Part shown: piece by piece, positions 723 through 19,229 of the stretch
Numbering within the stretch: position 1 is the stretch's first letter
Layout: each line of letters opens with the position of its first letter
Origin: Bacteroidota bacterium
GTDB taxonomy: Bacteria; Bacteroidota; Bacteroidia; JABEUT01
Direction of reading: 5' to 3'
DNA: 40,654 bases
NCBI GenBank assembly: GCA_013288205.1
Contig: JABDCH010000013.1
Coordinates: 1 to 40,654, forward strand
Position numbers and translations under genes: made by a program
The notes under the pieces: generated by a model
Database searches by the model: none
Told to the model about the DNA's origin: nothing
Seen by the model: only the letters and a program-made list of their open reading frames with translations

Positions 723-790
723 TACAAAGGTGTTATTATTGAGCTATCCAGGTATTACATAAGTATAAGAAAACCTTACATAAATTACAG
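723..790 (-). promoter_or_regulatory. 21-bp direct-repeat promoter A (CsbD copy 1, ferritin)
   Basis: Read on the minus strand: TGTAA (785-789, in place of TGTGA), N4, TGTAAG (775-780), then TGTAAT (754-759) exactly 21 bp downstream, then the -7 box TTTG (725-728) 31 bp after the start of the second copy. This is the architecture shared by eleven transcription units in the window. Function as an activator site is inferred. Confidence 0.8.
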
Positions 791-823
791 ATTTAAGGGG
801 TGCTTTCCCATGCTCAACATAAC

Positions 824-851
824 AAAAAGCACTATGTTTTACATAGTGCTT
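824..851 (-). terminator. Rho-independent terminator of the His-rich secreted protein gene
   Basis: A perfect 10-bp inverted repeat, AAGCACTATG and CATAGTGCTT, with a 5-nt loop. On the minus strand it is followed by a U-rich run. It begins 33 bp past the stop codon of the gene at 884-1306 and separates it from promoter A. Confidence 0.8.
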
Positions 852-883
852 AAGTGAGTTTATCAAATCTATGTCAGCAGATT

Positions 884-1306
884 TTAATGCTTATCATGGT
901 CCCTGTTATCATGCCCACCGGGTTTTTCAGCAAAGTTTTTTTGAGGTTGTCCTCTGTGATATCCTTTAGGATAGCTCTTCTGGTGGTCTTTATAATTTTC
1001 ATAGGGTCTTTCTCCATGGTAGTCCTTAAGTGCAACTTTCTGTCCGCCATAAAGGTCGTAATTCCTATATTTATGAGGCAGATTAGATGAATGAATCCAT
1101 CTCCCACCTGTCATATAAACATAGTTTCCATCCGTAACATCATAGTATGCCTGGATATCCGGAATATAATAGAATCTTACCCCTACTCCATCAGCCGGGC
1201 CCCAAGGCGGTGGATTACCGACAGTAGCAGTAATAACAACCTGTGCTTGTAATGTTCCGGCAAGAACTAATAATAATCCGCCGATCATTAATTTTAATTT
1301 TTTCAT
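884..1306 (-). CDS. Secreted His-rich protein of unknown function
   Basis: A 140-residue protein with a clear Sec signal peptide (KKLKLMIGGLLLVLAGTLQAQ, cleavage near residue 22), so it is exported. The mature part opens with VVITATVGNPPPWGP, contains several Tyr-rich segments (YYDVTDGNYVYMTGGRW) and ends in a basic, His/Asp/Gly-rich tail (HDNRDHDKH). The tail could bind metal, but no known catalytic motif is visible. ATG at 1306 is 42 bp after the -7 box of promoter B, and a palindrome lies in the 5' leader. It is a single-gene unit closed by the terminator at 824-851. I do not recognise a named family. Confidence 0.8.
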   Translation of the reverse strand: MKKLKLMIGGLLLVLAGTLQAQVVITATVGNPPPWGPADGVGVRFYYIPDIQAYYDVTDGNYVYMTGGRWIHSSNLPHKYRNYDLYGGQKVALKDYHGERPYENYKDHQKSYPKGYHRGQPQKNFAEKPGGHDNRDHDKH

Positions 1307-1323
1307 TTTTATTTGATTTATAC

Positions 1324-1341
1324 TGTGAATGAATTTTCACA
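1324..1341 (-). promoter_or_regulatory. Leader palindrome TGTGAA-N6-TTCACA (copy B)
   Basis: A perfect 6-bp inverted repeat with a 6-nt spacer, 6 bp downstream of the TTTG of promoter B, so it spans the likely transcription start and early leader. Near-identical elements occur at the same place at 11628-11645 and 11107-11124. It may be a second operator or an RNA hairpin. Confidence 0.55.
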
Positions 1342-1345
1342 ACAG

Positions 1346-1412
1346 TACAAAGGTGGAGCTATTCAATAAGTCAAGCGTTATATATCGCCCTCTGGATATT
1401 ACACATATCACA
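1346..1412 (-). promoter_or_regulatory. 21-bp direct-repeat promoter B (His-rich secreted protein)
   Basis: On the minus strand: TGTGA (1408-1412), N4, TGTAAT (1398-1403), TATAAC (1377-1382) 21 bp downstream, and TTTG (1348-1351) 31 bp after the start of the second copy. The TGTGA overlaps the last codon and stop codon of the upstream AraC gene. Confidence 0.8.
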
Positions 1413-1968
1413 TATTCTCCAGGTTGGCTTGCCTCTTTCTTTTTAGTTGTTTATAAAAGGAAGGAGACACACCGGTAATTTTCTTAAATTGATTTGATAA
1501 GTGAGCTACACTACTATAATGAAGTTTATAAGAAATCTCCGTGAGATTAAGCTCATCATAAAGTAGCAATTCCTTTACCTTTTCAATTTTATTTATTATA
1601 ATATATTGCTGAATAGTGGTGCCCTTCACCTCTGAAAATAGATTGGAGAGGTAGGTATAATCAAGATTGAGTTTTTCACTGATATATTCCGAATAATTCA
1701 CACGGGGCAACTCATCGGAATAATGAATCATTTCAGTAATTATATTTTTTATTCTTTCAATCAGGATGCTTCTTTTATCATCCAGCAATTCCAATCCTGA
1801 TTTAAGCAGGTTTATTTTTAGCAGCCTACGTTGTTCGGGGGTTAAATCCTCCAGAATTTCAATAGTTCCAAGGTCAACAAATACATACTTCAGTCCGAGT
1901 TTTTTCAACTCATCCTTTACCATCATCTTGCATCGCAAGCTGACCATATATTTAATGTATAATTTCAA
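1408..1968 (-). CDS. AraC-family regulator with HMA-like N-terminal domain (copy 1)
   Basis: A 186-residue DNA-binding regulator. The C-terminal half (about residues 85-175) is an AraC double helix-turn-helix: DYTYLSNLFSEVKGTTIQQY for the first helix pair and NLTEISYKLHYSSVAHLSNQ followed by FKKITGVSP for the second. There is no cupin sensor. Residues 1-65 instead look like a heavy-metal-associated (HMA) beta-alpha-beta-beta-alpha-beta unit, with MVSLRC at residues 8-13 where HMA domains have MxCxxC; the first Cys is Ser. The start is TTG at 1968: an in-frame TAG lies just upstream, and the N-terminal sequence is conserved in the paralogue at 14422-15018, which also starts with TTG. It lacks the 21-bp-repeat element and seems to be driven by an ordinary promoter near 1994-2001. 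The HMA assignment is inference. Confidence 0.88.
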   Translation of the reverse strand: MKLYIKYMVSLRCKMMVKDELKKLGLKYVFVDLGTIEILEDLTPEQRRLLKINLLKSGLELLDDKRSILIERIKNIITEMIHYSDELPRVNYSEYISEKLNLDYTYLSNLFSEVKGTTIQQYIIINKIEKVKELLLYDELNLTEISYKLHYSSVAHLSNQFKKITGVSPSFYKQLKRKRQANLENM

Positions 1969-1993
1969 AGTACCCTATTTAATGAAATATAAG

Positions 1994-2001
1994 CAAAGGT
2001 A
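1994..2001 (-). promoter_or_regulatory. Bacteroidota -7 box for the AraC gene (copy 1)
   Basis: TACCTTTG on the minus strand matches the TAnnTTTG consensus perfectly, 25 bp upstream of the TTG start at 1968. No TGTAAC repeats occur upstream of it, so this gene appears to be outside the regulon. Confidence 0.55.
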
Positions 2002-2104
2002 CTCCATTATCAGGTAATTATTTAGAACCCAAAAAATGAAAAATCGTTAGTTAATAAACCTGATAAAAGAAGGCTTTTACATCAAGAGCAGTAAAAACAT
2101 CCAA

Positions 2105-2800
2105 TTATTTCTTCTCCTCTTTCTTTTCGTCTTTCTTCTCTTTTTTCTTTAAGAAGCCCTTTAAAAGAAAACTGTGTCCCGCTGCATCCATATTCTGTTT
2201 AAACCCGCCGGCACCTTGCTTAATATTTACCATAGCCTGGCCCACATTTTGAGCCATCGTACTATCCATTAATAGTTTCCCTATAGTTCCCTTTCCTTCA
2301 TGAATACTTTTCATTACAGCAGAAAGGTCACCAGTTATACTTGCCAAATTATTACTGGTCGTTTTTACGTTTGCCATTATCTCATCAATATTTACAGGTT
2401 GAATGGTTTCAATTATATCATTATTTGATATTTCTTGTTTCCCGGGAGGCCCGGGGATTATTGAAATGATCTTATTTCCCATTAACCCATCGGAGCCAAT
2501 TATTGCCTTTACATTTTTTTTCATGAATTTCCTGGTATGCTCATCAATTTCCATATCTACCCTTACAGTTGAATCTGTAACTTGCTCAATGTTTTCAACT
2601 ATACCAACATTAATACCTGCAAATCGTACATTATTTCCAATCTGTAGCCCGCCTATATCCTTAAATATACCGCTTATCTGGTATGTATTACTAAACATCT
2701 GTTGTCTTTGCCCGATAAAATAGATTCCTGCAATAAACAATACGACACTAACAGTAACAAAAATCCCAAGTCTTGTTTTATTTCCTGTTTTCTTTTCCAT
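2105..2800 (-). CDS. mlaD: MCE/MlaD-family lipid transport protein
   Basis: A 231-residue MCE-domain protein, the periplasmic lipid-binding part of an Mla-type ABC transporter that moves phospholipids across the envelope. It has one N-terminal membrane anchor (about residues 11-30, LGIFVTVSVVLFIAGIYFI), then the MCE domain (about 38-115; GLQIGNNVRFAGINVGIVE is typical), then a helical region and a very Lys/Glu-rich tail (KKKEKKDEKKEEKK). It is the last gene of the operon starting at 5587, 11 bp after the ATPase gene. The order permease, ATPase, MCE protein matches the family. Direction of lipid flow cannot be read from sequence. Confidence 0.9.
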   Translation of the reverse strand: MEKKTGNKTRLGIFVTVSVVLFIAGIYFIGQRQQMFSNTYQISGIFKDIGGLQIGNNVRFAGINVGIVENIEQVTDSTVRVDMEIDEHTRKFMKKNVKAIIGSDGLMGNKIISIIPGPPGKQEISNNDIIETIQPVNIDEIMANVKTTSNNLASITGDLSAVMKSIHEGKGTIGKLLMDSTMAQNVGQAMVNIKQGAGGFKQNMDAAGHSFLLKGFLKKKEKKDEKKEEKK

Positions 2801-2811
2801 AATAATATTCT

Positions 2812-3537
2812 TTAGTTAAAAAATGAGCGTATCCACTCATCCTTAGATTCTGAAATTTCTTTAAAAGTTCCTTCCGCCAATACTATTCCTTCTTTAATTA
2901 TGATAACCCGGTTGGCAGTTATACGCGCACATTCAATATCATGGGTTATAATAATGGAAGCAGTATTGTATTTTTTTTGCATGTTCAATATCAGTTGGCT
3001 AATTTCCCTGGAGGTGATTGGGTCTAAGCCTGTAGTGGGTTCGTCGTAAAGAATTATTTCGGGTTTTAATATTAGGGTACGTGCCAATCCAACCCGTTTT
3101 CTCATTCCACCGGAAAGCTCAGATGGCATTTTATCAATAGCGCTTTCGAGTCCGACATTTTGTAAGGCTTCTATAACTAATGCGTCTGTTTCCTCTCGCG
3201 GTTTAGCTTTCAAATCACGAAGGGGGAATTCAAGGTTTTCACGTACACTCATAGAATCATATAACGCAGCGCTTTGAAAGAGAAATCCTACCTTCTTTCG
3301 CAGGATATTTAATTTGCCTGTTTTTAACCCTGCTATGTTTTCACCAAATAGAAATATCTCTCCTTCATCTGGTTCAATCAGGCCAACAAGACATTTTATA
3401 AGTACAGATTTGCCACTTCCCGATTTACCTAATACAACAAGGTTTTCGCCTTTGTTAATTTTAAGATTGATGTCATTCAGCACATGATTAGTTCCAAATG
3501 ATTTACGTAAGTGTGTTATTTCTGCAACAGTTTCCAT
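2812..3537 (-). CDS. mlaF: Mla-type ABC transporter ATPase
   Basis: A 241-residue ATPase subunit on the cytoplasmic face of the MCE lipid transporter. Walker A is GKSGSGKS (near residue 37), the ABC signature LSGGMRKRVGLA, Walker B ILYDEPTTGLDP and the switch His is in ITHD. The variant signature GGMRKR is typical of MlaF/Ttg2A ATPases. The start is ATG at 3537, one base after the permease stop, which implies translational coupling. All catalytic residues are present. Confidence 0.93.
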   Translation of the reverse strand: METVAEITHLRKSFGTNHVLNDINLKINKGENLVVLGKSGSGKSVLIKCLVGLIEPDEGEIFLFGENIAGLKTGKLNILRKKVGFLFQSAALYDSMSVRENLEFPLRDLKAKPREETDALVIEALQNVGLESAIDKMPSELSGGMRKRVGLARTLILKPEIILYDEPTTGLDPITSREISQLILNMQKKYNTASIIITHDIECARITANRVIIIKEGIVLAEGTFKEISESKDEWIRSFFN

Positions 3538-3538
3538 T

Positions 3539-4282
3539 TTAATATAACATGCTGGTTATTTGAACTGCTATCATATCAATAATAAATACCGACAATGACC
3601 CTAGAACAACCGAGGTATTGGCTGCCACCCCTACTCCTTCCGTTCCGTTGGTAGAATTATACCCTTTAAAACAACTAATCAATCCGATAGCAAATCCAAA
3701 GAAGAAAGTTTTAATAAAGGCGGGGAAAACATCAGAGAAGTCAAGGCTTTTGAATACCTGTAAAAAGAATAAATGAAAACTGACAGATCCTTTTAGATTC
3801 ACTGCTATATATGCCCCATATAGTGAAATAGCATCGCCAAGTATAACTAATAAGGGAAGCATTAGTGTAGTAGCCAATACCCTTGTTACTACAATATATT
3901 TATACGGATTCATTCCGGAAACTTCCATAGCATCTATTTGTTCCGTAACCTTCATGGAAGCTAATTCTGCTCCAATACCCGAGCCCACTTTTCCGGCAAA
4001 GATCAAGGCAAATATAGTGGGGCCAAGTTCACGGACAATGGAAACGGATACCATTGCCGGCAACCATGACACCGCTCCAAATTCGGCAAGTGTTGGCCTG
4101 GATTGTATAGTCATTACTAGGCCCAAAATAAGTCCTGTAATTGCAACCAAAGGAAATGACTTATAGCCTATTAAATAGGATTGCCTCACAAATTCATTAA
4201 ACTCATAGCGGGGCTTAAACAACTCCCTGAAAAAACGAAATGTAAATTTTGTCAATAGTGTAACTTCTTCAAAAAAACCCAT
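3539..4282 (-). CDS. mlaE: Mla-type ABC transporter permease
   Basis: The MlaE/YrbE-type permease of the MCE lipid transporter, with several membrane spans. Family hallmarks include SYLIGYKSFPLVAITGLILG near the start, then SIVRELGPTIFALIFAGKVG followed by SGIGAELASMKVTEQIDAME. I chose ATG at 4282 (247 residues, protein starts MGFFEEV), which gives the usual family length. An upstream ATG at 4420 would add 46 residues unlike the family and overlap the preceding gene by 88 bp, so I consider it unlikely but not excluded. It sits between the AI-2E-family gene and the ATPase gene. Confidence 0.9.
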   Translation of the reverse strand: MGFFEEVTLLTKFTFRFFRELFKPRYEFNEFVRQSYLIGYKSFPLVAITGLILGLVMTIQSRPTLAEFGAVSWLPAMVSVSIVRELGPTIFALIFAGKVGSGIGAELASMKVTEQIDAMEVSGMNPYKYIVVTRVLATTLMLPLLVILGDAISLYGAYIAVNLKGSVSFHLFFLQVFKSLDFSDVFPAFIKTFFFGFAIGLISCFKGYNSTNGTEGVGVAANTSVVLGSLSVFIIDMIAVQITSMLY

Positions 4283-5612: not shown

Positions 5613-5677
5613 CAAAATTCGCCTTACTACATGGAAAGGATGTTACACAAGCTAACCTAAAGGTTACATGTTTCACA
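5613..5677 (-). promoter_or_regulatory. 21-bp direct-repeat promoter D (lipoprotein, AI-2E, Mla operon)
   Basis: On the minus strand: TGTGA (5673-5677), N4, TGTAAC (5663-5668), TGTAAC (5642-5647) 21 bp downstream, and a TTTTG -7 box (5613-5617) whose TTTG is 31 bp after the start of the second copy. It drives five genes down to 2105. Confidence 0.82.
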
Positions 5678-8386: not shown

Positions 8387-9169
8387 TTATTGGTTAAGTA
8401 ATTTGAATAGCTCTGTCAAATCAGGTGATAAAATAATATCCGTTCTGCGATTGCTGGCCCTTCCTTCAGCGGTTGAATTGGTAGCTACCGGTATATATTT
8501 CGACCTGCCAGAAGCAACCATGGCATTTGGGTTCACGTTATAATCTTTGATGAGGATACGAACTATAGAAGTAGCACGTGCTGTGCTTAGAGCCCAATTA
8601 TCCTCATATTTTCCGGTCATGGGAATGCTATCCGTGTGTCCTTCTACATCCACCGTAATACCGGAGGTGTTATTAAGAACACTAGCCAGAGTTTTCAAGG
8701 CATCTTTACCTTGAGCATTAACCACAGCGCTGCCCGAAGCAAATAAGAGTTTTTCCTGGAGCGAAACATACAGTTTACCATCTTTCAAGGTAACTGTTAA
8801 TTCATCAGGTTTAAAGTTAATTAAAGCATCTGCAACCGTCTTTTTCAGTTTAGTCATAACATCTTTTTGAGACTGGATAAGTGCTTCCAGGTTCTTTAAG
8901 CGTTTAGCCTGATCAGTTATAGTCATATTTGAATTCGCTTCATTTGTCTGGTAGCTGATTGAAAGATCATTGATTGAATTTTTCAAATCAGCTTTATCCT
9001 TTTGAAGTGAGGCAACCTGTGTATTGCAATCGTTTAATTGGGAATGCATATTAGTGCTATCCCTTTGCAAGCCTTTCACTCTTTTTTGTTCACTAATTAA
9101 TTTGGCTTTAGGAACACAGGCGGCAAAAAGGAGCACAAAGCCTGATGCTAGTAGAATATTTCTTTTCAT
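8387..9169 (-). CDS. OmpA-family peptidoglycan-binding lipoprotein
   Basis: A 260-residue lipoprotein: signal and lipobox LLASGFVLLFAAC (Cys18), a coiled coil (about residues 25-110) and a C-terminal OmpA-like domain (about 135-255). The peptidoglycan-binding pattern is clear: VDVEGHTDSIP, the conserved Asp and Arg in NWALSTARAT, and GRASNRRTDI. It probably links the outer membrane to the cell wall. ATG at 9169 is 14 bp after the small ORF at 9184-9336, and both belong to the operon driven by promoter G. Confidence 0.92.
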   Translation of the reverse strand: MKRNILLASGFVLLFAACVPKAKLISEQKRVKGLQRDSTNMHSQLNDCNTQVASLQKDKADLKNSINDLSISYQTNEANSNMTITDQAKRLKNLEALIQSQKDVMTKLKKTVADALINFKPDELTVTLKDGKLYVSLQEKLLFASGSAVVNAQGKDALKTLASVLNNTSGITVDVEGHTDSIPMTGKYEDNWALSTARATSIVRILIKDYNVNPNAMVASGRSKYIPVATNSTAEGRASNRRTDIILSPDLTELFKLLNQ

Positions 9170-9363: not shown

Positions 9364-9430
9364 TACAAAGGTGGCTATCATTGAAGCCAGGGGCGTTACA
9401 CAACACTATACAATAGTTGCATAATTCACA
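9364..9430 (-). promoter_or_regulatory. 21-bp direct-repeat promoter G (OmpA/YihY envelope operon)
   Basis: On the minus strand: TGTGA (9426-9430), N4, TGCAAC (9416-9421), TGTAAC (9395-9400) 21 bp downstream, and TTTG (9366-9369) 31 bp after the start of the second copy. The upstream arm is identical over 16 bases to that of the transketolase promoter at 19162. Its TGTGA is also half of a perfect 8-bp palindrome at 9423-9441. Confidence 0.82.
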
Positions 9431-9458: not shown

Positions 9459-11090
9459 TTAGTTCTGTGCAATCAGCTTACCTGATTGTATTAACGTGTT
9501 ATCATTTATCAATTGATAGAAATAAATTCCGGATGGAAGATTACCTGTTGCAAGCGTTGTGGCTTGTTGGGTAATATTTACATTCATTACTTCTTCCCCT
9601 AAAACATTATACATTTTTAGTACAGCATTGTTTATTTGCAATGCACCATTTATGCTGATGGTGGTATATTTCCGGAATGGGTTCGGATAAATGGTAGCCA
9701 CATCGTCCCCATTTTTCCCATTGATAGAGGAGATACCTAAAGCTCCACAATCGCTAGGTATCATTGGAGCCTTATCATTCATAGCCGTGGTTGTTAACGC
9801 TCCATTGGTTGTAAGCGCCCTGCCATTGAGTGTAACTCCTGTATTTAATGCGCCTAAAGCGCCGTTGTTACAAATTATCGTTCCGCAGAAAACAGAATAA
9901 TTATTTATTTTCACAGCACCATTAACCAGCCAATACACATTTTGCGCTTGTGCTCCATTGATCAATATAACCCTTGAATATGTACTGGTAGATATAGCGC
10001 CATATATCTGGATAACAAATACTGCATTGGCGTTATCTTCTGCATTCAGGTAAAGTGAATCGGTGAATGTGGTGGCAGCATTTAATAGATAAGTATGTGG
10101 CGTGAGAACAAGACCATTTCCAAATTGTGCAGGGTATAATAGTTGTATATCGTATGGCAGTGTGCTTATATCTGTATAAGCGGTTGATACATCTTTTGCA
10201 CAGGCTGCAGTGGAGCCATCAGGTATAGGATGAATAGTTCCAGTTACGTCAGCAGGATTAAAACCGGTAGCAGAGCCATTATTGCTGCCAACATCGCCCG
10301 TTACATAAGTTGTACCTGAATTAGAAACGGCACCATCTGAAGAAAATAATGCATAGCAGGCAGCGCTGCCAAGTACTGGGGCAGTTGGCCCTGTAAGAGT
10401 GGGGCTTCCGCAGCCTATAGGGGTATAGGCCAATATGCCATTAACAGTTACGGCTCCATCAGTAGAAAGCGCCCTTCCTTCCAGGGTATCGCCCGTATTC
10501 ATTTTAATTGCTGCGTTATTTGCAATAACAGTTCCTCTCATAGTAGTGCCTGAAGCCATGCTTACAAGGCCTTCTACTTTCCAGAACACATTACAGGCCA
10601 ATGCTCCGTTTACTAATATGATTTTAGAAGATGCATTGGCAGAAAAAGAGCCCTTAATTTGAAAAATAAATACAGCATTTGGATTTCCTTTTGCATTCAG
10701 AAAAAGTTTAAGATTCAGCGTTGAAGCGCTGGTTATGGAATAAACACCCGCTACAAGGGTGTCTCCATTTCCCAATGTGGGAGCAGGAAAAAAAGTTGGA
10801 ACATCGCTGTTCAATTGATTATATGCAATTAATAAATCAGTTGAGCATTGGGCGCTTGCCGCATTATTATTGTCCATTACACCGTTTACATTTCCAAAAC
10901 CGGTGCTGGAGCCATTGTTTGTCCCTACATTGCCTGTAAGCTGCGAAATACTAGTATTGGTAACAGCTCCGTTAGAAGAGAAAAGAACAAAATTTGCAGC
11001 AGTTCCCATCGTCGGAGCTTGTGCAAAATTTAAACTTGGTATTAAAAATAGTATACATATTGTTACTAGTTTGAGGCGTTTTGCATTCAT
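9459..11090 (-). CDS. Double DUF3494 (ice-binding-like) protein with T9SS sorting tail
   Basis: A 543-residue secreted protein with a signal peptide (KLVTICILFLIPSLNFAQ) and two tandem DUF3494 ice-binding-like beta-solenoid domains, about residues 25-225 and 240-445. Each repeat starts with a FVLFSSNGAV or YALFSSDGAV strand, then LTGNVGTNNGSSTGF or VTGDVGSNNGSATGF. The C-terminus (from about 465) is a T9SS type A sorting domain with IYPNPF, MYNVLGEEV and LPSGIYFYQL. It is thus exported to the cell surface or medium. DUF3494 members bind ice or act as adhesins; which applies is not visible. I use ATG 11090: an upstream GTG at 11123 lies at the predicted transcription start of promoter E and cannot be used from that promoter. 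Confidence 0.9.
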   Translation of the reverse strand: MNAKRLKLVTICILFLIPSLNFAQAPTMGTAANFVLFSSNGAVTNTSISQLTGNVGTNNGSSTGFGNVNGVMDNNNAASAQCSTDLLIAYNQLNSDVPTFFPAPTLGNGDTLVAGVYSITSASTLNLKLFLNAKGNPNAVFIFQIKGSFSANASSKIILVNGALACNVFWKVEGLVSMASGTTMRGTVIANNAAIKMNTGDTLEGRALSTDGAVTVNGILAYTPIGCGSPTLTGPTAPVLGSAACYALFSSDGAVSNSGTTYVTGDVGSNNGSATGFNPADVTGTIHPIPDGSTAACAKDVSTAYTDISTLPYDIQLLYPAQFGNGLVLTPHTYLLNAATTFTDSLYLNAEDNANAVFVIQIYGAISTSTYSRVILINGAQAQNVYWLVNGAVKINNYSVFCGTIICNNGALGALNTGVTLNGRALTTNGALTTTAMNDKAPMIPSDCGALGISSINGKNGDDVATIYPNPFRKYTTISINGALQINNAVLKMYNVLGEEVMNVNITQQATTLATGNLPSGIYFYQLINDNTLIQSGKLIAQN

Positions 11091-11106
11091 TGTTTTGAAG
11101 ATTAAT

Positions 11107-11124
11107 TGTGAAATAATTTTCACG
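11107..11124 (-). promoter_or_regulatory. Leader palindrome TGTGAA-N6-TTCACG (copy E)
   Basis: The palindrome found in two other leaders, here with one mismatch at its outer edge, 3 bp from the TTTG of promoter E and just before the ATG at 11090. Confidence 0.45.
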
Positions 11125-11127: not shown

Positions 11128-11192
11128 CAAAACTGCGCACTTTGATTGCGGTGTGCGTTACATAACGACTGATAAGAGTTGCATAAATCCCA
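11128..11192 (-). promoter_or_regulatory. 21-bp direct-repeat promoter E (DUF3494 protein)
   Basis: On the minus strand: TGGGA (11188-11192, one mismatch to TGTGA), N4, TGCAAC (11178-11183), TGTAAC (11157-11162) 21 bp downstream, and a TTTTG -7 box (11128-11132) whose TTTG is 31 bp after the start of the second copy. It occupies the whole gap behind the small membrane protein gene. Confidence 0.8.
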
Positions 11193-11426: not shown

Positions 11427-11612
11427 TTATAAGGACGAGATAAGTTTCAAAACTTCTTCTTTGGTCTTGCCAAGTTTTACCTGAAGCATTCCAAGCAACT
11501 CGTCTTTCTTGCCATCTTCAAACATCAGGTCATTATCCAACAGGATAGCAAATTTTTGTTTTAGTCTGCCTTTCTGTTCGTACCAACTTCCTGTTGCTTC
11601 TGTAGTATTCAT
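11427..11612 (-). CDS. CsbD-like stress protein (copy 2)
   Basis: A 61-residue CsbD-like protein, closely similar to copy 1 throughout, including GSWYEQKGRLKQKF, NDLMFEDGKKDELLG and LGKTKEEVLK. The start is ATG at 11612, 40 bp after the -7 box of promoter F. Its leader carries the TGTGAA palindrome also found before the His-rich secreted protein. Function is general stress by family only. Confidence 0.9.
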   Translation of the reverse strand: MNTTEATGSWYEQKGRLKQKFAILLDNDLMFEDGKKDELLGMLQVKLGKTKEEVLKLISSL

Positions 11613-11649: not shown

Positions 11650-11716
11650 TACAAAGATCAACATCTTTGCTTTGATAGCTATTACAGATATTTATAGAAG
11701 AGTTACATGATTCACA
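11650..11716 (-). promoter_or_regulatory. 21-bp direct-repeat promoter F (CsbD copy 2)
   Basis: On the minus strand: TGTGA (11712-11716), N4, TGTAAC (11702-11707), TGTAAT (11681-11686) 21 bp downstream, and TTTG (11652-11655) 31 bp after the start of the second copy. Confidence 0.82.
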
Positions 11717-11746: not shown

Positions 11747-12178
11747 TTACATCCGTTCCATATACCAATTCAAGGTTTTTTCCATTTTTTTATACTGAAA
11801 AATGGAAGTTATAATTTTTTGCAAGCGCGTAAATGCTGTTTCACTTTTCACAACATAATCAAAGGCCCTGTGGTGCATACAATTCACGGCCACTTCAATT
11901 TTATCTTGTGAGGATAACATTACAACGGCAATATCCTGATTATAGGCTTTTATCTTATCCAACGTTTGCATTCCGTTCATGGCATTTTTATCGATACCAT
12001 TGAGAAAATAGTCTAAAATAATTACATCCGGATTATGTGATAAATTATTCATACAAAGTTCCCCGGTGGCATACGTTTCAATATTAAAATCAGCATGTTG
12101 CAGAAACTCAATTTCCAATGATTTTAAGAATACGGCATCATCATCTACCAGGAAAAGCTTTATTTTTTCATTTTTCAT
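11747..12178 (-). CDS. Single-domain response regulator (CheY-like receiver)
   Basis: A 143-residue protein that is one receiver domain with no output domain. The acidic pair is in LFLVDDD, the phospho-acceptor Asp is in DVIILDYF (about residue 56), the Ser/Thr switch is in VVMLSSQD and the conserved Lys is in DYVVKSE. A C-terminal extension (YKKMEKTLNWYMERM) is helical. ATG at 12178 overlaps the kinase stop by 4 bp, so it is translationally coupled to the hybrid kinase and likely receives phosphate from its Hpt domain. With no DNA-binding part, it probably acts by protein contact or as a phosphate sink. Confidence 0.92.
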   Translation of the reverse strand: MKNEKIKLFLVDDDAVFLKSLEIEFLQHADFNIETYATGELCMNNLSHNPDVIILDYFLNGIDKNAMNGMQTLDKIKAYNQDIAVVMLSSQDKIEVAVNCMHHRAFDYVVKSETAFTRLQKIITSIFQYKKMEKTLNWYMERM

Positions 12179-14418
12179 ATCGGGGTATTTTTTATCATAT
12201 CAAACTCTATTTCCAATTCTTTACACGCCTGGGCGCATATATTTTCAAGTTGTCGCACAAGGTCAGGTATTCCATCGGCCTGCTGTTGGGTGCTTGCATA
12301 TTCCTGAACCTTTTTTGCCATATTTTCAAAATCTATATTAATACCCATAATGGAAAATGAAGGAATCATTTTATGGACAGCCCCGTACAACGAATCCCAG
12401 TCCTTATCCAGCAGGCTCTGCTTCATGGTAACGACTAAGGGCGGGGTTTGTTCCAGGTAAAGCGATATCATTTCCATCATCAATTTAGGATTGGATTTTG
12501 TACGGTGAATCAAATAAGCGAGGTCAATGCATTTTACTTTATTGCTTTGAAAACTTCCAATCCCTTTGTTCCCGGTAATTTTCGCATCCACGGGCTTTTT
12601 AACCAATGTTATTATTTTACTGTACAATAGTCTTTCGTCAACAGGTTTGGCGATATAATCATTCATGCCAACTGCCTTGCATTTTTCAAGATCAACTGTT
12701 GTTACGTCAGCAGTTAAGGCTATAATAGGAATTTTGGAGTTTAGCTTATTGCGGATATAATCTGTTGCTTCAAATCCGTTCATCTCTGGCATCTGCAAAT
12801 CCATTAGTACTATATCATACTCTTTGTCCTTGAGTTTTTCTATAGCTATTCTACCGTTGGAAACAATATCGCGTTCAAATCCGAAGTCATCTAAAAGCGT
12901 TTTCATTAATAATTGATTGAGCGCTATGTCTTCCACTACTAATACTTTAATGTTTCTTATATCCGTATCCAGCTCCATTAATTCTGTTTCTACAGGTGTC
13001 TCTTCTTTTGTTCTCTGAAAACTTAGTATAAAACTGAAGGTGGAGCCTTCATCAATTTTACTTTTCACATTGATACTTCCTCCCTGAGGCTCTACTAATT
13101 GTTTAACAATAGCAAGACCTAAGCCGGTTCCACCATATAGCCTGGAAGTGCCGCTGGAGGCCTGCTGAAAGTTTTCAAATATTTTATCTATCTTACTTTC
13201 GGGTATTCCTATTCCCGTGTCACTGACGGCAAATTGTACCGTCGCTTTCTCTCCATCTTCATCCAACAAACGGGCGCTTACGGTTATTTTTCCTTTTGAG
13301 GTAAACTTCACGGCATTGCTGACCAGGTTTAAAATAATCTGGTGCAAACGCACCGGGTCGCCAACCAATATTTCCGGAATATTCGTGTCATATTCCTTAA
13401 TTAATACCAAATTTTTTTCCTGTATTTTGGTCTCAAACAAATGGATCATAGCAGATATGGATAATGCCATTTTAAAAGGCACTTGCTCAAACGTCATTTT
13501 CCCGGCATCTACTTTTGCCAGATCCAGTATATCATTAATAAGTACGATTAATGAATCGCCACTCATTTTTATCGCTGTTAAATATTCCTTTTGTTTAGCC
13601 GACAGTTCTGTCTTCAATACCACTTTCGTAAATCCTATAATGGCATTCATAGGGGTCCGGATCTCATGACTCATGTTTGACAAAAACTGTTGTTTCGCCT
13701 TCACTGCGTCTTCCGCTATCCGCCTGGCAGTTTCAGCTTTGCTTTTTGCAACCTGGGCAATTCCTGTAGCTAATTCCGCGAATACTTTGGCTTCTATCAG
13801 CTCCTTTTCTATCTTCTTTAAATCAGTTACATCCCTCGCTACCACTACTGCACCTATCACTTTACCATCTTCATCTTTATAAACCGAACCACTTAACAGT
13901 ACATCTGTCAGTACACCATCAATTATAGTGAGTGGATAATTCAATATAAAACCCTTTGAAAAAATTTCCCTGTGTACATTTGCTGCCTTCTTAACTTCAA
14001 CAAAATAGGTAGTAAATTTCGTGCCTACAAGATTTTCACGCACTTTATCAGTAGCTTTTACCATAGCCTCGTTTACATCTGTAATTACACCTTTTAAATC
14101 CAGGGTGACCCAAGGGTCTAGCGTGGCTTCTATCAGGCTCCTTGCATATTGAGAAGTCAATTTTACAGAATGACTGAATGCTTTCAGCTTTTTATGGGTA
14201 ATTTCTTTTTTTGCTTTTTCCTTGTTCTGAAAAGCAAGTTCTATGTTGGCAACACCTAATTCTGCCGCCCGTTTATCCTTCTCAGTATCCTGAAAAGTGA
14301 GTTTCTTATGTGCAATGAGTAACTCAGATGCTAATCTTTTATTCTCTTCTTTTTGAAGGATAATTTCTTTTTGAGCATCCAGCAATTCATCCTGGACCGT
14401 TTTTTTTATTTTGGCCAT
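12175..14418 (-). CDS. Hybrid sensor histidine kinase (PAS-HisKA-HATPase-REC-Hpt)
   Basis: A 747-residue hybrid kinase. In order: N-terminal coiled coil (about 1-85), PAS domain (about 90-200, VTLDLKGVITDVNEAMVKAT), coiled linker rich in Ala/Lys (205-245), HisKA with phospho-acceptor His251 in SHEIRTP, HATPase with LNLVSNAVKF, DTGIGIP and GTGLGLAIV, a receiver domain with Asp540 in VLMDLQMP, and a C-terminal Hpt domain with His682 in AVHKMIPS. No transmembrane segment is visible, so it senses a cytosolic signal, perhaps through the PAS domain. It starts 3 bp after the AraC gene and overlaps the receiver gene by 4 bp, so the three form one operon under promoter K. All phosphorelay residues are present. 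Confidence 0.95.
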   Translation of the reverse strand: MAKIKKTVQDELLDAQKEIILQKEENKRLASELLIAHKKLTFQDTEKDKRAAELGVANIELAFQNKEKAKKEITHKKLKAFSHSVKLTSQYARSLIEATLDPWVTLDLKGVITDVNEAMVKATDKVRENLVGTKFTTYFVEVKKAANVHREIFSKGFILNYPLTIIDGVLTDVLLSGSVYKDEDGKVIGAVVVARDVTDLKKIEKELIEAKVFAELATGIAQVAKSKAETARRIAEDAVKAKQQFLSNMSHEIRTPMNAIIGFTKVVLKTELSAKQKEYLTAIKMSGDSLIVLINDILDLAKVDAGKMTFEQVPFKMALSISAMIHLFETKIQEKNLVLIKEYDTNIPEILVGDPVRLHQIILNLVSNAVKFTSKGKITVSARLLDEDGEKATVQFAVSDTGIGIPESKIDKIFENFQQASSGTSRLYGGTGLGLAIVKQLVEPQGGSINVKSKIDEGSTFSFILSFQRTKEETPVETELMELDTDIRNIKVLVVEDIALNQLLMKTLLDDFGFERDIVSNGRIAIEKLKDKEYDIVLMDLQMPEMNGFEATDYIRNKLNSKIPIIALTADVTTVDLEKCKAVGMNDYIAKPVDERLLYSKIITLVKKPVDAKITGNKGIGSFQSNKVKCIDLAYLIHRTKSNPKLMMEMISLYLEQTPPLVVTMKQSLLDKDWDSLYGAVHKMIPSFSIMGINIDFENMAKKVQEYASTQQQADGIPDLVRQLENICAQACKELEIEFDMIKNTPI

Positions 14419-14421: not shown

Positions 14422-15018
14422 TTAACTTGATGAATTTATATCTTTATTAGTTAAATTTCCGATTTCTTCTATAGGGCTTCTTTTTTTATCCTTCAATTGC
14501 TTAAACTGCGTAGGAGAAAGCCCGGTAATTTTTTTGAACTGATTAGATAAATGTGCTACGCTGCTATAATGCAATCTGTATGCAATCTCTGTGAGGTTCA
14601 GTTCGTCGTAGAATAGTAATTCTTTTACTTTTTCAATTTTATGAGCGATAATAAATTGCTGTATGGTAATGCCTTTCACTTCAGAAAATATGTTGGACAT
14701 ATAGGTATAATCGTGCTTTAGCTTTTCACTAATGTAGTCTGAATAATTCATTTTAGGAATATCATTGGAATAATGAATCATTTCAGAAATTACACCGATT
14801 ATTTTTTCAATCAATACGGCCCTTTTATCATCCATTAATTCAAACCCTGAAGCAAGCAGCTCCACTTTCAGTTGGTCCAGTTGCTCTGGAGAAAGGGTCT
14901 CCATAATTTCCACCTCACCTAAATCGACCACCATAAAGTGCAATTCCATCTTTTTTAATACTTCTTTCACCGCCATTTTACAGCGGTTACTCACCATGTA
15001 TTTTATATATAACTTCAA
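14422..15018 (-). CDS. AraC-family regulator with HMA-like N-terminal domain (copy 2); candidate regulon activator
   Basis: A 198-residue paralogue of the gene at 1408-1968, nearly identical in the DNA-binding helices (NLTEIAYRLHYSSVAHLSNQ, FKKITGLSP). The N-terminal 65 residues again look HMA-like, with MVSNRC at residues 8-13: the first metal-site Cys is Ser, the second is kept. It starts with TTG at 15018, like copy 1, and the shared KLYIKYMVS segment supports that choice. It is the first gene of an operon with a hybrid kinase and a receiver protein, and its own promoter K carries the 21-bp direct repeat. AraC proteins bind direct repeats spaced by two helical turns, so this protein is my best candidate for the regulator of all eleven promoters, with positive feedback. 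That role is inferred. Confidence 0.9.
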   Translation of the reverse strand: MKLYIKYMVSNRCKMAVKEVLKKMELHFMVVDLGEVEIMETLSPEQLDQLKVELLASGFELMDDKRAVLIEKIIGVISEMIHYSNDIPKMNYSDYISEKLKHDYTYMSNIFSEVKGITIQQFIIAHKIEKVKELLFYDELNLTEIAYRLHYSSVAHLSNQFKKITGLSPTQFKQLKDKKRSPIEEIGNLTNKDINSSS

Positions 15019-15055
15019 AATATTAGTTTGTAAATGAGCGCATTTCAGGTAAATG

Positions 15056-15119
15056 CAAAGTTGAGTAACTATAAACAGAAAGAGTTACATAACTAAAGAG
15101 AATAGTTACATAAATCACA
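15056..15119 (-). promoter_or_regulatory. 21-bp direct-repeat promoter K (AraC/hybrid kinase operon)
   Basis: On the minus strand: TGTGA (15115-15119), N4, TGTAAC (15105-15110), TGTAAC (15084-15089) 21 bp downstream, and TTTG (15056-15059) 30 bp after the start of the second copy, the only unit not at 31. This is the closest match to the consensus and implies autoregulation. Confidence 0.83.
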
Positions 15120-15210: not shown

Positions 15211-15468
15211 TTAAAGGCTACGGGAAGGCTTACGGGGAGCAATCTCTACTTTTTGAGGTTGGCTTTTTTTGATAATACCAATCACATCTTCACGATTTTT
15301 GTTCAGCCTGGTTTCTATCCTGCTGAGCAATTCGTTTTCTTTACCGGCTTCAAACTTGAGGTCGGCATCTGTTAGTTGGGAATAGTTCTTCTTAAGCTGC
15401 TTGGATTGGGTTTCCCAATTGCCATTCATTTTGAAGGTCTCGGTGGTTTTATTTTTTGTTGATTCCAT
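15211..15468 (-). CDS. CsbD-like stress protein (copy 3)
   Basis: An 85-residue CsbD-like protein, longer than the other two: an N-terminal extension (ESTKNKTTETFK), the family core NGNWETQSKQLKKNYSQLTD, then ADLKFEAGKENELLSRIETR, and a basic Pro-rich tail (APRKPSRSL). ATG at 15468 lies 42 bp after the -7 box of promoter H. The internal Met at residue 14 would match the family's usual length but would make the leader longer than in any other unit. Confidence 0.87.
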   Translation of the reverse strand: MESTKNKTTETFKMNGNWETQSKQLKKNYSQLTDADLKFEAGKENELLSRIETRLNKNREDVIGIIKKSQPQKVEIAPRKPSRSL

Positions 15469-15507
15469 GTTATTTTTTTTATTTAAATTAGTTACTAATA
15501 ATTACGA

Positions 15508-15574
15508 TACAAAAATCGGCCTATTGAACCATTGAGGTATTACATAGTAATGAGAGATTATTATATATATCACG
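15508..15574 (-). promoter_or_regulatory. 21-bp direct-repeat promoter H (CsbD copy 3)
   Basis: On the minus strand: CGTGA (15570-15574), N4, TATAAT (15560-15565, degenerate), TGTAAT (15539-15544) 21 bp downstream, and a TTTTTG -7 box whose TTTG (15510-15513) is 31 bp after the start of the second copy. It has the weakest upstream half-site after promoter I. Confidence 0.72.
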
Positions 15575-15652: not shown

Positions 15653-15686
15653 CATTAAATTTGCTTTGAAAGCTTGTTGATCAGTC

Positions 15687-17936
15687 TTATATCTTGCTGA
15701 ATTTCTTTACAACTTCCATATTGTCATTGTGAAGTCTCAGGATATACATACCATCAGCTAAGCCAGCAACAGAAACAACTGTTGCCGTATTATGAAACTG
15801 AAAGGTAGAAACTAATTGTCCAAATGCATTGTAAATTTCTCCATAAACAAGCGCTGTAGAACCTGTAGTATTTTGTATATTCAGGTTGCCGGTAGCAGGG
15901 TTAGGATATATTACAACGTTTCCGGTGCTTGCAGTTATTTCATTTACTGAAGTAGGAATTGTTTGCTGATTAAACACTGCAAACGGACTCATAGAAGTAA
16001 CATTCGCACGTACTAAACTATACATGCTTCCTGCCACTGTTGCGACCATACTGTCGCCAATATTATCCCACATAGATGCATAATGCGAAATATAACTGAA
16101 GTCGGTATGTAAAAATCCATTTACTTCAGCCGCAGCCAACCATGACAATTGCATGTTGGCATTGATGCCTGTACCTATGTTATTTTGAAATAACCAGGTA
16201 GCAGCAACCATTGGTTGGCTGGCCGATATTACAACACCTGTAGTACCTTGTGAGTAAACTTGAGGCATAGCGCTTAAGCCTACCGTTCCAACTGCAGAAC
16301 CCGGATTAAGGTTTAAGGTTGCAGGCAAATAGTTAGCTACTGTACCCACTTGATATGTGATAGTTTTACCTATGGTATCATTCATGGTTAAATAACCACC
16401 TTTGCTCGTAATTATATAAGACGTGTTGCTTGCCCCGGTAACAGCACCTGTGCGAGCTATCTCTAAATCACTGCTTCCGATATCAACGTAACCTTTTACA
16501 AAATTCAAGGTTCCGTCAATAATAAGTTCTGAACCCAATTTAAGTGAGCCTGCATTTCCTACATTCATAGTCAGATTCTTTATAGTATCGCCCAATGGTG
16601 AAAACATAATTGAATCGGTAACTGCTGTTAATGTATTTACACTGATGTTGGAAGCATGAGTTGAAAAAACCATACCTTTTCCTAATGCAGCAATGTCGGC
16701 ATTTATAGCTAAATTGTTTCCATTGAGAACGAGTGTTCCGCTTACTAAATTAAGGGTATCCACATTCAAGGCTGTTGCCAGGGTTATGCTATGTGTGTTT
16801 CCGATATTCTCAGTAAACTTACCCAGCGAGATGCCGCTAAGTGCAACATCTCCGGTAATAGTATTAATACCTGTAAAGGCTAATTTCGAAAGAGAATTCA
16901 CTGCTAAAAAGCCTGTACCAGTTAAATTACCTACTATCGTAAGAGCTTCACCACTGATGTTAAGCTCGCTACCGGTCGAAAGCACCAGGTTGCCGGCCAG
17001 GGTAAGTGCAGATGAAATAGCTACTGAATTACCAATACCTACATTAACCGTTAGGTTATTCAAATTCTGAAATCCCTTTACAAAGCCAATCGAGTTTGAC
17101 AACCCCGTTACTGTATTTACAGTAATGCTTGAAAGAACATTACCTGCTATGGCAACATTGCCCGTTATCTGGCTGCTGGTGGTAAGATTAAAGCCATCAA
17201 GCTTCAATACACCGCTGGTAAATTTTAACGAATCGTCCATTACAACGCTGGAAGTTAATGCCACTGTATCGGCACTTGGCACGTCAATAGTTACAACGCC
17301 TAATCCGACGCCACTTAGTTCCAACCCTGCTGTGGCAGAAGTATTAATATAGTTTACACTATATGGTGAAGTAAGCACGAGTGTGCCACCTGATAATGCA
17401 ACGCCTCCTCCCGATATAATTATATCAGAATTAGATCCGGCTGTTAATACACCGGCTGCATCCATTGTAAGTAAGCCTGACAGATTAAGCTCATTAAAAA
17501 ACTTAATTTGAGCTGTGGTACTGAGACTAACCATCGAATTGATGATAGTGTCGGCAATAACTGCGCCTGTGAAGGTGAATGAACCTCCTGTATTTAGCAT
17601 AAACTTGGCTGCATTGATGCTTCCTGCACCGGCTAAAGAACCGCCTGAATTTACATTCAACCTAATGTAAGGAGCTGCTGAGAGTGTTCCAAGTACATTT
17701 ACTGTACCGTTAACTGCAACATTTTGGTCCATCGTTACCGTGTAAGTCAAAGGGACAACAACTATGTCGCCTACCGGTAATGTAAATGGAGGTGCACTGC
17801 CTCCCCACGTTGCTGCGCTGCTCCAATTACCTGTTGCCGATGCTGTGTATATTGTCGCAGAGGACATTCCACATACCAGCATAAAGGATGCTATAAGCAG
17901 TCCCGCTTTTACTGGATTTTTGATATTCTTTTTCAT
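15687..17936 (-). CDS. Large secreted beta-repeat protein with T9SS sorting tail
   Basis: A 749-residue exported protein with a signal peptide (AGLLIASFMLVCGMSSA). It opens with TASATGNWSSAATWGG, an opening common in Bacteroidota surface proteins, followed by more than 500 residues of short beta-strand repeats rich in Gly, Ser, Thr, Asn and Leu (patterns such as LTLAGNLVLSTGSELNISGE and ALNVDTLNLVSGTLVLNGN) that suggest a beta-helix. The C-terminal 75 residues are a T9SS type A sorting domain: VVIYPNPATGNLNIQN, IYNAFGQLV, LADGMYILRLHN, KKFSKI. It is surface-anchored or released, possibly an adhesin. It forms a single-gene unit with promoter I and a strong terminator. Confidence 0.87.
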   Translation of the reverse strand: MKKNIKNPVKAGLLIASFMLVCGMSSATIYTASATGNWSSAATWGGSAPPFTLPVGDIVVVPLTYTVTMDQNVAVNGTVNVLGTLSAAPYIRLNVNSGGSLAGAGSINAAKFMLNTGGSFTFTGAVIADTIINSMVSLSTTAQIKFFNELNLSGLLTMDAAGVLTAGSNSDIIISGGGVALSGGTLVLTSPYSVNYINTSATAGLELSGVGLGVVTIDVPSADTVALTSSVVMDDSLKFTSGVLKLDGFNLTTSSQITGNVAIAGNVLSSITVNTVTGLSNSIGFVKGFQNLNNLTVNVGIGNSVAISSALTLAGNLVLSTGSELNISGEALTIVGNLTGTGFLAVNSLSKLAFTGINTITGDVALSGISLGKFTENIGNTHSITLATALNVDTLNLVSGTLVLNGNNLAINADIAALGKGMVFSTHASNISVNTLTAVTDSIMFSPLGDTIKNLTMNVGNAGSLKLGSELIIDGTLNFVKGYVDIGSSDLEIARTGAVTGASNTSYIITSKGGYLTMNDTIGKTITYQVGTVANYLPATLNLNPGSAVGTVGLSAMPQVYSQGTTGVVISASQPMVAATWLFQNNIGTGINANMQLSWLAAAEVNGFLHTDFSYISHYASMWDNIGDSMVATVAGSMYSLVRANVTSMSPFAVFNQQTIPTSVNEITASTGNVVIYPNPATGNLNIQNTTGSTALVYGEIYNAFGQLVSTFQFHNTATVVSVAGLADGMYILRLHNDNMEVVKKFSKI

Positions 17937-17975
17937 GATTTTTTGATTTAAATGATTTAATTAATAATTACGCTG

Positions 17976-18040
17976 CAAAAGTCCTTCTGTTTACGCAGAG
18001 AAGCATTACACATTACAGAAAAGATGTTACACATATCTTA
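17976..18040 (-). promoter_or_regulatory. 21-bp direct-repeat promoter I (T9SS beta-repeat protein)
   Basis: On the minus strand: TAAGA (18036-18040, weak match to TGTGA), N4, TGTAAC (18026-18031), TGTAAT (18005-18010) 21 bp downstream, and a TTTTG -7 box (17976-17980) whose TTTG is 31 bp after the start of the second copy. A third TGTAAT at 18012-18017 lies between them. Confidence 0.75.
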
Positions 18041-18057
18041 TCTTTAGTGTAGGACAT

Positions 18058-18087
18058 AAAAAAAAGTCCCGCATTTCTGCGAGACTA
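18058..18087 (-). terminator. Rho-independent terminator of the coiled-coil lipoprotein gene
   Basis: Stem AGTCCCGCA and TGCGAGACT with one mismatch and a 4-nt loop, followed on the minus strand by a run of nine U. It lies 27 bp past the stop codon at 18114. Confidence 0.85.
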
Positions 18088-18113
18088 CTTTAAACATCAC
18101 ACTACTACACTAA

Positions 18114-18956
18114 CTATTTTAATGCGACAACCATATATTTACTTTCTCCCCAGAATGCCGAAGGATTTGTTATGGAAACATAATCCGATTTATCATCACT
18201 GGTGATCGTATAAGAATTATCAGGATGGGTAGTGATGAACTTCTTAAACTTCCCATTTAAACTTATGCTTTTACAGGTAGTAAGATCGGCTCGTGTGTAC
18301 TTTGAGTTATCAATATTGGGGTTTACTTTGGATGTACGCCCTATTCCAATAAATCCGCCTTGTTTATCTATAATGCCATTATCTTTTAGTTGTTTCATGG
18401 TTCCGCAGGAATAATAAACAGTATTTATTTGATTGGTTAAATCGGCTACCTGTGCCCGTTGCGCATATATTACACTCATGCTATCATCGAAGTTGGCGTT
18501 AACGGTTTGCAAAGCATTATTAGTCTGTATTAGGTTATTTTGTAATACATAAATTTCTGTATCCTTCATGGAAATTTCCTGTGAAAGGTGCATTACTATA
18601 TCTGAAAGATTTGCATTTTTAATAGTCATGCTTTTTAGTCTTGCTTGAAGGCTGGTCATTTTCTTATCATTGGCAAGAATCCATTCGTCCAGTTCCTTTA
18701 CTTCTGCAACAACCGACTGTTTGTTTTCACCGGAAGTTACGGTTATCATTTTTTCACGAGCCTTGATCCTGTCCAGATTATCCTGTATTTCGCTAAGTGC
18801 ACTCAGATAAGAGGTTACATTAGAATCTTTTTGATTGGCCTGTGCAAGAAGTGTTGAATCCTGTCTGTTTAAGTCTGTTAGCTTTTGAACCTGGTCCGAA
18901 TTGGAGCATCCGGCAAGCACAAGCATTGCAATAATAATATATCCTGTTGTTTTCAT
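18114..18956 (-). CDS. Coiled-coil lipoprotein, possibly Cbp1-type adhesin
   Basis: A 280-residue lipoprotein: lipobox AMLVLAGC (Cys16), long coiled coil (about residues 20-175) and a C-terminal globular part (about 180-280) with YYSCGTMKQLKDNGIIDKQG, GGFIGIGRTSKV, ITTHPDNSY and SITNPSAFWGESKYMVV. This layout and the YY-xGT-KELK-G-I / GGFIGIG pattern recall Bacteroidota lipoproteins annotated as Cbp1-family collagen-binding adhesins; I am fairly but not fully sure of that name, and the collagen link need not hold here. It forms a single-gene unit with promoter J and its own terminator, divergent from transketolase. Confidence 0.82.
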   Translation of the reverse strand: MKTTGYIIIAMLVLAGCSNSDQVQKLTDLNRQDSTLLAQANQKDSNVTSYLSALSEIQDNLDRIKAREKMITVTSGENKQSVVAEVKELDEWILANDKKMTSLQARLKSMTIKNANLSDIVMHLSQEISMKDTEIYVLQNNLIQTNNALQTVNANFDDSMSVIYAQRAQVADLTNQINTVYYSCGTMKQLKDNGIIDKQGGFIGIGRTSKVNPNIDNSKYTRADLTTCKSISLNGKFKKFITTHPDNSYTITSDDKSDYVSITNPSAFWGESKYMVVALK

Positions 18957-18990
18957 ATTTTGTTGGTTTTAATTTATGTTTTATTGAGTG

Positions 18991-19055
18991 CAAAAGTGCG
19001 TTCATTTATGCCGAACGATATTACACATGGCTTAAAAATTGTTACACATATCACA
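18991..19055 (-). promoter_or_regulatory. 21-bp direct-repeat promoter J (coiled-coil lipoprotein)
   Basis: On the minus strand: TGTGA (19051-19055), N4, TGTAAC (19041-19046), TGTAAT (19020-19025) 21 bp downstream, and a TTTTG -7 box (18991-18995) whose TTTG is 31 bp after the start of the second copy. It lies back to back with promoter L. Confidence 0.82.
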
Positions 19056-19161
19056 TGTTATTTAAGTTAGTTTGGCATTTTTGCCTCAATTGAGTAAAGG
19101 GTAGCGATAGTTCCTTTTTTTAGTAATCCATTGACTATTATTAAGGTGCCTCTTTAAAATG

Positions 19162-19229
19162 TGTGAATTATGCAACTTTTCACGGGATTTATGTAACACC
19201 CGATTATGCAAGAATATCGTCCTTTATAC
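19162..19229 (+). promoter_or_regulatory. 21-bp direct-repeat promoter L (transketolase/glucan operon)
   Basis: The only plus-strand copy: TGTGA (19162-19166), N4, TGCAAC (19171-19176), TGTAAC (19192-19197) 21 bp downstream, then a -7 box variant TTTA (19223-19226) 31 bp after the start of the second copy. It brings central carbon and glucan genes into the regulon. The final G of TTTG is missing, which may weaken the core promoter. Confidence 0.78.

Follow-up and report, generated by a model that had tools for sequence, protein, structure and literature searches.

Do eleven promoters that precede unrelated genes and share one exactly spaced direct repeat belong to a single regulon, and which protein reads them? 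The question arises from a 40,654-nt stretch of DNA (the window; contig JABDCH010000013.1 of the Bacteroidota assembly GCA_013288205.1), in which a preliminary description made from the sequence alone had placed eleven copies of the pattern TGTGA-N4-TGTAAC-N15-TGTAAY-N25-TTTG, which is 65 bp long and was searched here with mismatches allowed. The best explanation of the whole, to which we give a probability of roughly 0.78, is one regulon under an AraC-type activator encoded in the window (AraC1, perhaps together with its paralogue AraC2), with autoregulation, a kinase and receiver arm, and an output serving envelope and general stress. Comparison of sequences makes it very probable that the sites belong to one small family of AraC-type activators across Bacteroidota. 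The sites, their geometry and conservation, the target families, and the linkage and co-occurrence of AraC1 were computed here.

Sites in the window

All eleven sites lie where the preliminary description placed them, with the two TGTAA-like copies 21 bp apart in every one, as it had stated. Its further claim that TTTG begins 31 bp after the start of the second copy in ten sites and 30 bp after it in one holds for the distances (30 bp at 15056) and fails for the sequence at 19162, where the box reads TTTA. Both copies are exact TGTAA in six of the eleven sites, the other five carrying one substitution in one copy (TGCAA or TATAA), and the TGTGA box is exact in seven. Such fixed geometry had been judged unlikely by chance, and the counts agree: with up to three mismatches the pattern occurs exactly 11 times in the window versus not once in 100 dinucleotide-preserving shuffles. 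A weight matrix trained only on loci of other genomes scores the eleven sites at 17.1-57.6 and finds no further match of at least 5 in the window, nor any in 100 Markov-1 windows. The source assembly (2.42 Mb, 61.7% complete) holds 14 matches with up to three mismatches, 11 of them in the window, and none to the reversed pattern. A TGTAA pair at 9810-9835 (+), inside the ice-binding-like gene on its opposite strand and without a matrix match, is taken as chance.

Operator anatomy and promoter geometry

The anatomy of the operator was read from 129 non-redundant sites; as all of these are exact matches to the pattern, only its unspecified columns count as evidence. The additional conserved bases give roughly AnGTGTGAATnATGTAACTnwTT-n-AnARTTRTGTAACAC ... 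CACCTTTGT, and a half-site is made up of two boxes spaced by about 9 bp, which in the distal half are TGTGA and TGTAAC. According to the available text of PMC6847099, the -7 element of Flavobacterium johnsoniae reads TAHHTTTG; its G is at -5, and transcription starts 4-5 nt further on. By this rule TTTG occupies -8 to -5, the distal TGTAAC about -60 to -55 and TGTGA about -69 to -65; because TTTG fits the Bacteroidota -7 box, the proximal TGTAAC is predicted to lie near -39 to -34, as in class II AraC geometry. The base at -12, usually T, is C in 55% of the sites and T in 30%. TTTG was also considered as a -33 element and rejected, since its context fits the -7 rule.

The spacing persists when it is left free. 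With half-sites scored by matrix and the gap allowed to vary by ±6 in four overlapping locus sets, 335 of 338 pairs are at 21 bp. Among distinct pairs outside the window the count is 329/332; 180 of these 329 pairs fall outside the exact pattern used for fetching, and in loci taken by their AraC gene it is 24/24. The -7 box stands at its nominal place in 260 of the 335 pairs of the overlapping sets, is shifted by 1 bp in 13 and was not found in 62. In named loci, 127 of 133 sites lie outside any open reading frame (ORF) of at least 90 aa. A simple ORF caller places a same-strand ORF start within 300 bp of 104, and within 100 bp of 80, of the 125 named-locus sites with more than 500 bp downstream.

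Distribution across Bacteroidota

The scan by position matrix and across related genomes that had been proposed at the outset recovers the eleven window sites and finds such sites in other Bacteroidia. With up to three mismatches they are present in 25 of 60 near genomes (own included), with a maximum of 26 in one genome and six matches in total to the reversed pattern; among same-genus genomes 9 of 10 have sites, the tenth, G007 (99% complete), lacking both sites and AraC1. With up to two mismatches they are found in 61 of 295 Bacteroidia genomes including the source, or, without it, as 258 matches in 60/294 genomes versus two reversed-pattern matches. A sample of the phylum gives sites in 17 of 247 genomes (own included), six of them outside the class, two of which, from one family, carry 8 and 6. 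An exact-pattern scan of the GTDB collection yields at least 119 stretches; among those listed, 117 are by title from Bacteroidota, one from Ignavibacteriota and one from 'Candidatus Saccharibacteria'. In the last record (locus L167, genome G510) there are 15 sites and an AraC1 with 78% identity, and for this reason it is probably mislabelled or a mixed Bacteroidota bin. At least three named strains not labelled as metagenome-assembled genomes have sites, namely Sunxiuqinia indica RC1_OXG_1F (8), Flavipsychrobacter stenotrophus RB1R16 (2) and Robiginitalea sp. SC105 (1).

The sites are clustered in some genomes of this set. In G224, from another family, 13 matrix sites (score at least 14) extend over 60 kb together with orthologues of MlaD, MlaF, MlaE, AI-2E, CsbD, OmpA and the 140-aa protein of the window, and with three ice-binding-like genes. 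In G508, whose sites are on one 5.26-Mb contig, 14 of 17 fall within 42 kb, and this stretch opens with two divergently oriented AraC genes. Near the site cluster on G224:C62 (locus L207) and on G108:C56 lie several tightly grouped genes for receivers and hybrid kinases, which suggests a larger signalling network.

AraC1 as candidate regulator

Two short AraC-family proteins, AraC1 and AraC2, are encoded in the window, and both match HTH_18, the double helix-turn-helix (HTH) AraC domain, above its cut-off. The preliminary description had guessed an AraC-type activator from the geometry, and this guess gains support from the presence of these proteins, from the co-occurrence of AraC1 with the sites, from sites in front of AraC1 genes and from the rigid spacing elsewhere. 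With AraC1 scored as present at a best-match -log10E of at least 70 to the window protein, sites occur in 32 of 39 genomes with AraC1 versus 28 of 255 without it (294 genomes; Fisher p=1e-19, without phylogenetic correction), and in genomes at least 90% complete in 25/30 versus 21/223. Within family f16, 21 sites are found in the genome that has AraC1, against 0, 0, 1, 0, 0 and 0 in the six that lack a close AraC1.

Gene order points the same way. Among AraC1-labelled loci, which are a subset of the AraC1-like genes found and include the window, a site stands directly before the gene in 12 of 17 with at least 60% identity and in 0 of 17 below 60%, and it does so at none of 21 AraC2-labelled genes. 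The AraC1 match of Sunxiuqinia indica is preceded, at a distance of 10 bp, by a site with two mismatches. The eleven loci taken around AraC genes have AraC, kinase and response regulator (RR; at least 60% identity) adjacent in six, and G283 is a seventh by RR search; of the other four, two show AraC with the kinase, one breaks off at the contig end behind AraC, and the last, of AraC2 type, lacks both kinase and RR. Coordinates fit the order AraC-kinase-RR in G108, G040 and G016. On this comparative evidence AraC1 is the probable activator of the regulon, with a presumably autoregulatory site in the promoter of its own operon.

In a tree of 53 AraC proteins (L070 was dropped as misaligned at its start), one set of 41 (support 100/99) takes in all 16 proteins whose genes are preceded by a site and 11 of the 13 whose genes are followed by one, as well as both window proteins; finer forks are mostly without resolution, and the bootstrap had not settled. 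AraC2 is tied to the sites in another manner: the stop codon (TGA) of its gene lies inside the TGTGA box of the following site. This unusual interlocking of an operator with a regulator gene recurs in AraC2-type genes, and 10 of 62 AraC genes, window included, show a stop codon within a TGTGA-like box, a proportion that is biased because six of the ten loci were fetched by site. The source genome has a third short AraC gene (G000:C56, locus L240, 6067-6717), which precedes genes weakly similar to the ice-binding-like protein (30-33%) and has no site of at least 14 in the surrounding 14 kb.

The N-terminal domain of these proteins is predicted to have a metallochaperone-like fold. An NCBIfam scan of AraC1 and AraC2 returned no model at its own cut-off. 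An AlphaFold2 model built from 54 aligned AraC proteins (mean pLDDT 88, pTM 0.72) has an N-terminal beta-alpha-beta-beta-alpha-beta order followed by a helix and then the AraC domain; Foldseek matches the model best to AraC-type domains (AraT, YesN, MarA) and its ~66 N-terminal residues (1-66) to Atx1-type copper chaperones (probability 1.00, TM by target 0.73, with a weak E of 0.04). A Pfam scan of the N-terminus gave no HMA match, and STAS at E=0.002 falls below cut-off. The MxCxxC loop of such chaperones is incomplete, as both window copies have Ser in place of its first Cys. Across the alignment the loop is mostly MVSxRC, with Ser at position 10 in 43/54 proteins, Cys in 9/54, and Cys13 kept in 52/54. 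Position 10 is Ser in 40 rows of the 41-row clade, which holds nearly all site-linked proteins; the 12 outside it have eight Cys, three Ser and one Gly, a mixture that leaves the direction of the Ser/Cys change uncertain. The N-terminal domain may have shifted from metal sensing to another input.

Target families

Matrix-found sites precede 181 genes, 177 of them encoding at most 900 aa, from which a random 145 were scanned. The families found are Ice_binding (18, the largest), MlaE (9), OmpA (9), CsbD (9), DUF5670 (5), HTH_AraC (4), YceI (2) and YtxH (2). A control set of 145 further genes from these loci shows no Ice_binding, MlaE, CsbD or DUF5670 in its 25 listed families, so that each can have at most one member there, and HTH_AraC has two. 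The DUF3494 ice-binding-like, CsbD, MlaE and DUF5670 families behind sites elsewhere match the window's own units. The families of units named in the preliminary description stand, with YihY removed: the site at 5613 sits behind YihY and serves the AI-2E/Mla genes, and YihY, which lacks a site of its own, could come under one only by way of the OmpA unit, as a distal member. The label of stress derives from this cargo, as csbD, dps and ytxH are members of the Bacillus subtilis SigB core list, according to the available text of PMC7824861.

Predicted mechanism and alternatives

We infer binding, activation, signal transfer and the role in stress along the following lines. Two AraC monomers would lie head to tail on the 21-bp repeat, the major-groove boxes of each half-site, about 9 bp apart, taking both HTHs of one monomer. 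The proximal TGTAAC would thereby place the activator beside the primary sigma factor and switch the gene on from a promoter whose -7 element is weak, mostly CAHHTTTG in place of TAHHTTTG. AraC1 would amplify its own operon, including the hybrid kinase and the receiver-only protein, and this pair is the probable sensory arm that feeds a signal to AraC1. The protective output would consist of CsbD, ferritin, Mla lipid transport, ice-binding-like surface proteins, YceI, YtxH and periplasmic glucan.

Several observations weigh against this picture. The association test ignores kinship. Ten genomes have at least three sites and no AraC1 at the threshold used (G002, G003, G004, G010, G101, G174, G188, G213, G224 and G275). 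G224 and G188 were set aside as counter-examples, because an RR orthologue (86% and 80%) and a kinase gene truncated where the contig stops adjoin the place expected for AraC1, which itself was not seen; G003, G004, G010 and G213 are 68-84% complete. G002 (98% complete), G101 (100%), G174 (94%) and G275 (98%) have 3-8 sites and no close AraC1, and G174 and G275 also have no RR orthologue. Conversely, seven genomes with AraC1 (G024, G051, G116, G117, G185, G263 and G283) have no site with up to two mismatches; the fetched loci of G116 and G283 contain weak matrix sites (24.5 and 15.3). AraC1 has no receiver domain through which the receiver protein could act, and OmpA is not enriched behind sites (9/145 versus 7/145 in the control).

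Another protein could be the binder. AraC2 or a further short AraC member might bind the sites with AraC1 merely a target, as the stop-codon overlaps (including those of L060 and L067, labelled AraC1) and the shared set of 41 could suggest; many-site genomes, however, carry AraC1 beside kinase and RR, and sites precede AraC1 and never an AraC2-labelled gene, which makes this unlikely. LytTR sites are also direct repeats, of about 21-22 bp, and a LytTR response regulator or similar factor would fit that period and the sites of G174 and G275; we regard it as very unlikely, given that no LytTR match came up among the window ORFs scanned (28 of the 94 listed), that the two boxes in each half-site are those expected for two HTHs, and that AraC1 co-occurs with the sites. 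The fixed distance to the TTTG box and the predominance of C at -12, unlike the primary consensus, could instead mean that an alternative sigma factor reads the element as an extended promoter and that no activator takes part. This is highly improbable, as conservation reaches about -69 and includes a repeat spaced by two helical turns, and the box keeps the AHHTTTG of the primary sigma factor. That an AraC protein acts as a repressor would agree with the proximal half covering the -33 region, and yet it is improbable, since activation fits better with the weak -7 boxes and with a single precise, activator-like address shared by many unrelated genes.

What the regulon responds to is a separate matter. 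It is possible, and tentatively proposed, that an activator-led regulon of this kind is a general stress response of much of Bacteroidota, run through an AraC-type activator and not a dedicated sigma factor, with the metallochaperone fold, stripped of one metal ligand, as probable receiver-controlled switch and with targets gathered in an island around the activator-kinase-receiver operon. The same sites and regulator might alternatively serve a specific response to cold or freezing or to damage of surface or envelope, a serious if somewhat doubtful proposal: ice-binding-like proteins lead the targets, and the Mla genes, the proteins sorted by the type IX secretion system (T9SS) and the glucan genes have envelope functions, whereas the CsbD, YtxH, YceI and ferritin targets resemble general stress sets such as the SigB list in the available text of PMC7824861.

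Features of the window

Coordinates are collected in Table 1. The start of transketolase is probably the ATG directly 3' of the site at 19162. The 2904-aa protein of that unit (23502-32216) has glucoamylase-like and GH94 domains and is likely a cyclic glucan synthase; its unit is the sole one on the plus strand behind a site. Only short closed ORFs are listed for 34800-40654, open ends being unlisted, so that a long gene continuing past the end of the window could have gone unlisted there.

Table 1. Sites and regulatory genes of the window, with the units that follow the sites
Feature	Position	Strand	Unit behind the site, or description	Mismatches	Matrix score	Distance to gene
Operator/promoter	725..789	-	CsbD (500-685) and ferritin (1-450, cut by window edge)	2	37.6	40 bp
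Operator	1348..1412	-	140-aa protein (884-1306); TGTGA includes AraC2 stop codon		29.0	
AraC stop codon overlapping a site	1408-1412		Also at loci L053, L060, L067, L079, L106, L114, L118, L147, L171			
AraC2	1408..1968	-	Short AraC-family paralogue, TTG start, candidate second regulator; HTH_18 E=2.9e-16			
Operator	5613..5677	-	AI-2E transporter-MlaE-MlaF-MlaD (5436-2105), perhaps also AraC2	0	33.0	177 bp
Operator	9366..9430	-	OmpA (8387-9169), then DUF5670, PAP2, YihY	1	55.1	197 bp
Operator	11128..11192	-	DUF3494 ice-binding-like protein with T9SS tail (9459-11123; Ice_binding E=9.9e-75)	2	47.1	
Operator	11652..11716	-	CsbD2 (11427-11612; profile score 39.6 bits, slightly below cut-off 40) and 64-aa protein	0	57.6	
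Receiver-only RR	11747..12178	-	143 aa; orthologues (61-89%) beside AraC1 and kinase in other genomes			
Hybrid histidine kinase	12175..14418	-	747 aa; PAS, HisKA, HATPase_c, REC, weak Hpt (E=0.005, 17.5 bits, below cut-off)			
AraC1	14422..15018	-	198 aa, TTG start; predicted HMA-like N-domain and AraC DNA-binding domain; HTH_18 E=4.7e-16			
Operator	15055..15119	-	AraC1-kinase-receiver operon; -7 box 1 bp closer	2	32.1	37 bp
Operator (weakest)	15510..15574	-	85-aa CsbD-like protein (15211-15468), clusters with CsbD proteins	3	17.1	
Operator	17976..18040	-	749-aa T9SS-sorted protein (15687-17936; Por_Secre_tail)	2	29.5	
Operator	18991..19055	-	280-aa coiled-coil lipoprotein (18114-18956; NF052320 170.6 bits, cut-off 90)	0	39.7	
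Operator	19162..19226	+	Transketolase-RpiB-PGM/PMM-2904-aa GH94 protein (19163-32216); box TTTA	2	44.1	

Relation to known systems and significance

The proposed circuit shares parts with several known systems. AraC at araI1-I2 and XylS at Pm, the class II examples, have in common with it the double-HTH domain, a 21-bp direct repeat and a proximal half beside the -35/-33 region (here predicted); unlike them, it combines a Bacteroidota -7 box, an HMA-like N-domain, an operon with hybrid kinase and receiver, and many scattered or clustered targets. The hybrid two-component systems (HTCS) of Bacteroidota likewise join a hybrid kinase and an AraC-type output in one genetic unit, but here the kinase and the AraC protein are separate, no AraC domain was matched in the 747-aa kinase chain, and the targets are not one polysaccharide locus; the circuit is not an HTCS. 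The predicted fold of residues 1-66 is that of HMA/Atx1 metallochaperones, here fused to an AraC domain and with Ser for the first loop Cys. The general stress regulons of SigB, RpoS and PhyR-EcfG carry CsbD, YtxH and Dps/ferritin as shared cargo (for SigB, the list in the available text of PMC7824861); unlike these, the regulon proposed here has a probable activator and a primary-sigma-like -7 box and no dedicated sigma factor.

The preliminary description knew of no regulon with this site, and no description of one was found in the open-access literature subset. To our knowledge no general stress regulon has been described for Bacteroidota, nor was one found in the same subset. A flavobacterial study of transcription start sites reports six sigma motifs, and its main text mentions neither AraC nor TGTAA (PMC9723704). 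Taken together, the data suggest a shared stress-control circuit of Bacteroidota that seems not to have been described before. The circuit is specific and testable, comprising an operator, a probable regulator, sensory genes and targets, and it includes named strains with sites. Through it many DUF and ice-binding-like genes would gain a regulatory context, and its rigid promoter grammar would help to predict the stress genes of uncultured Bacteroidota.

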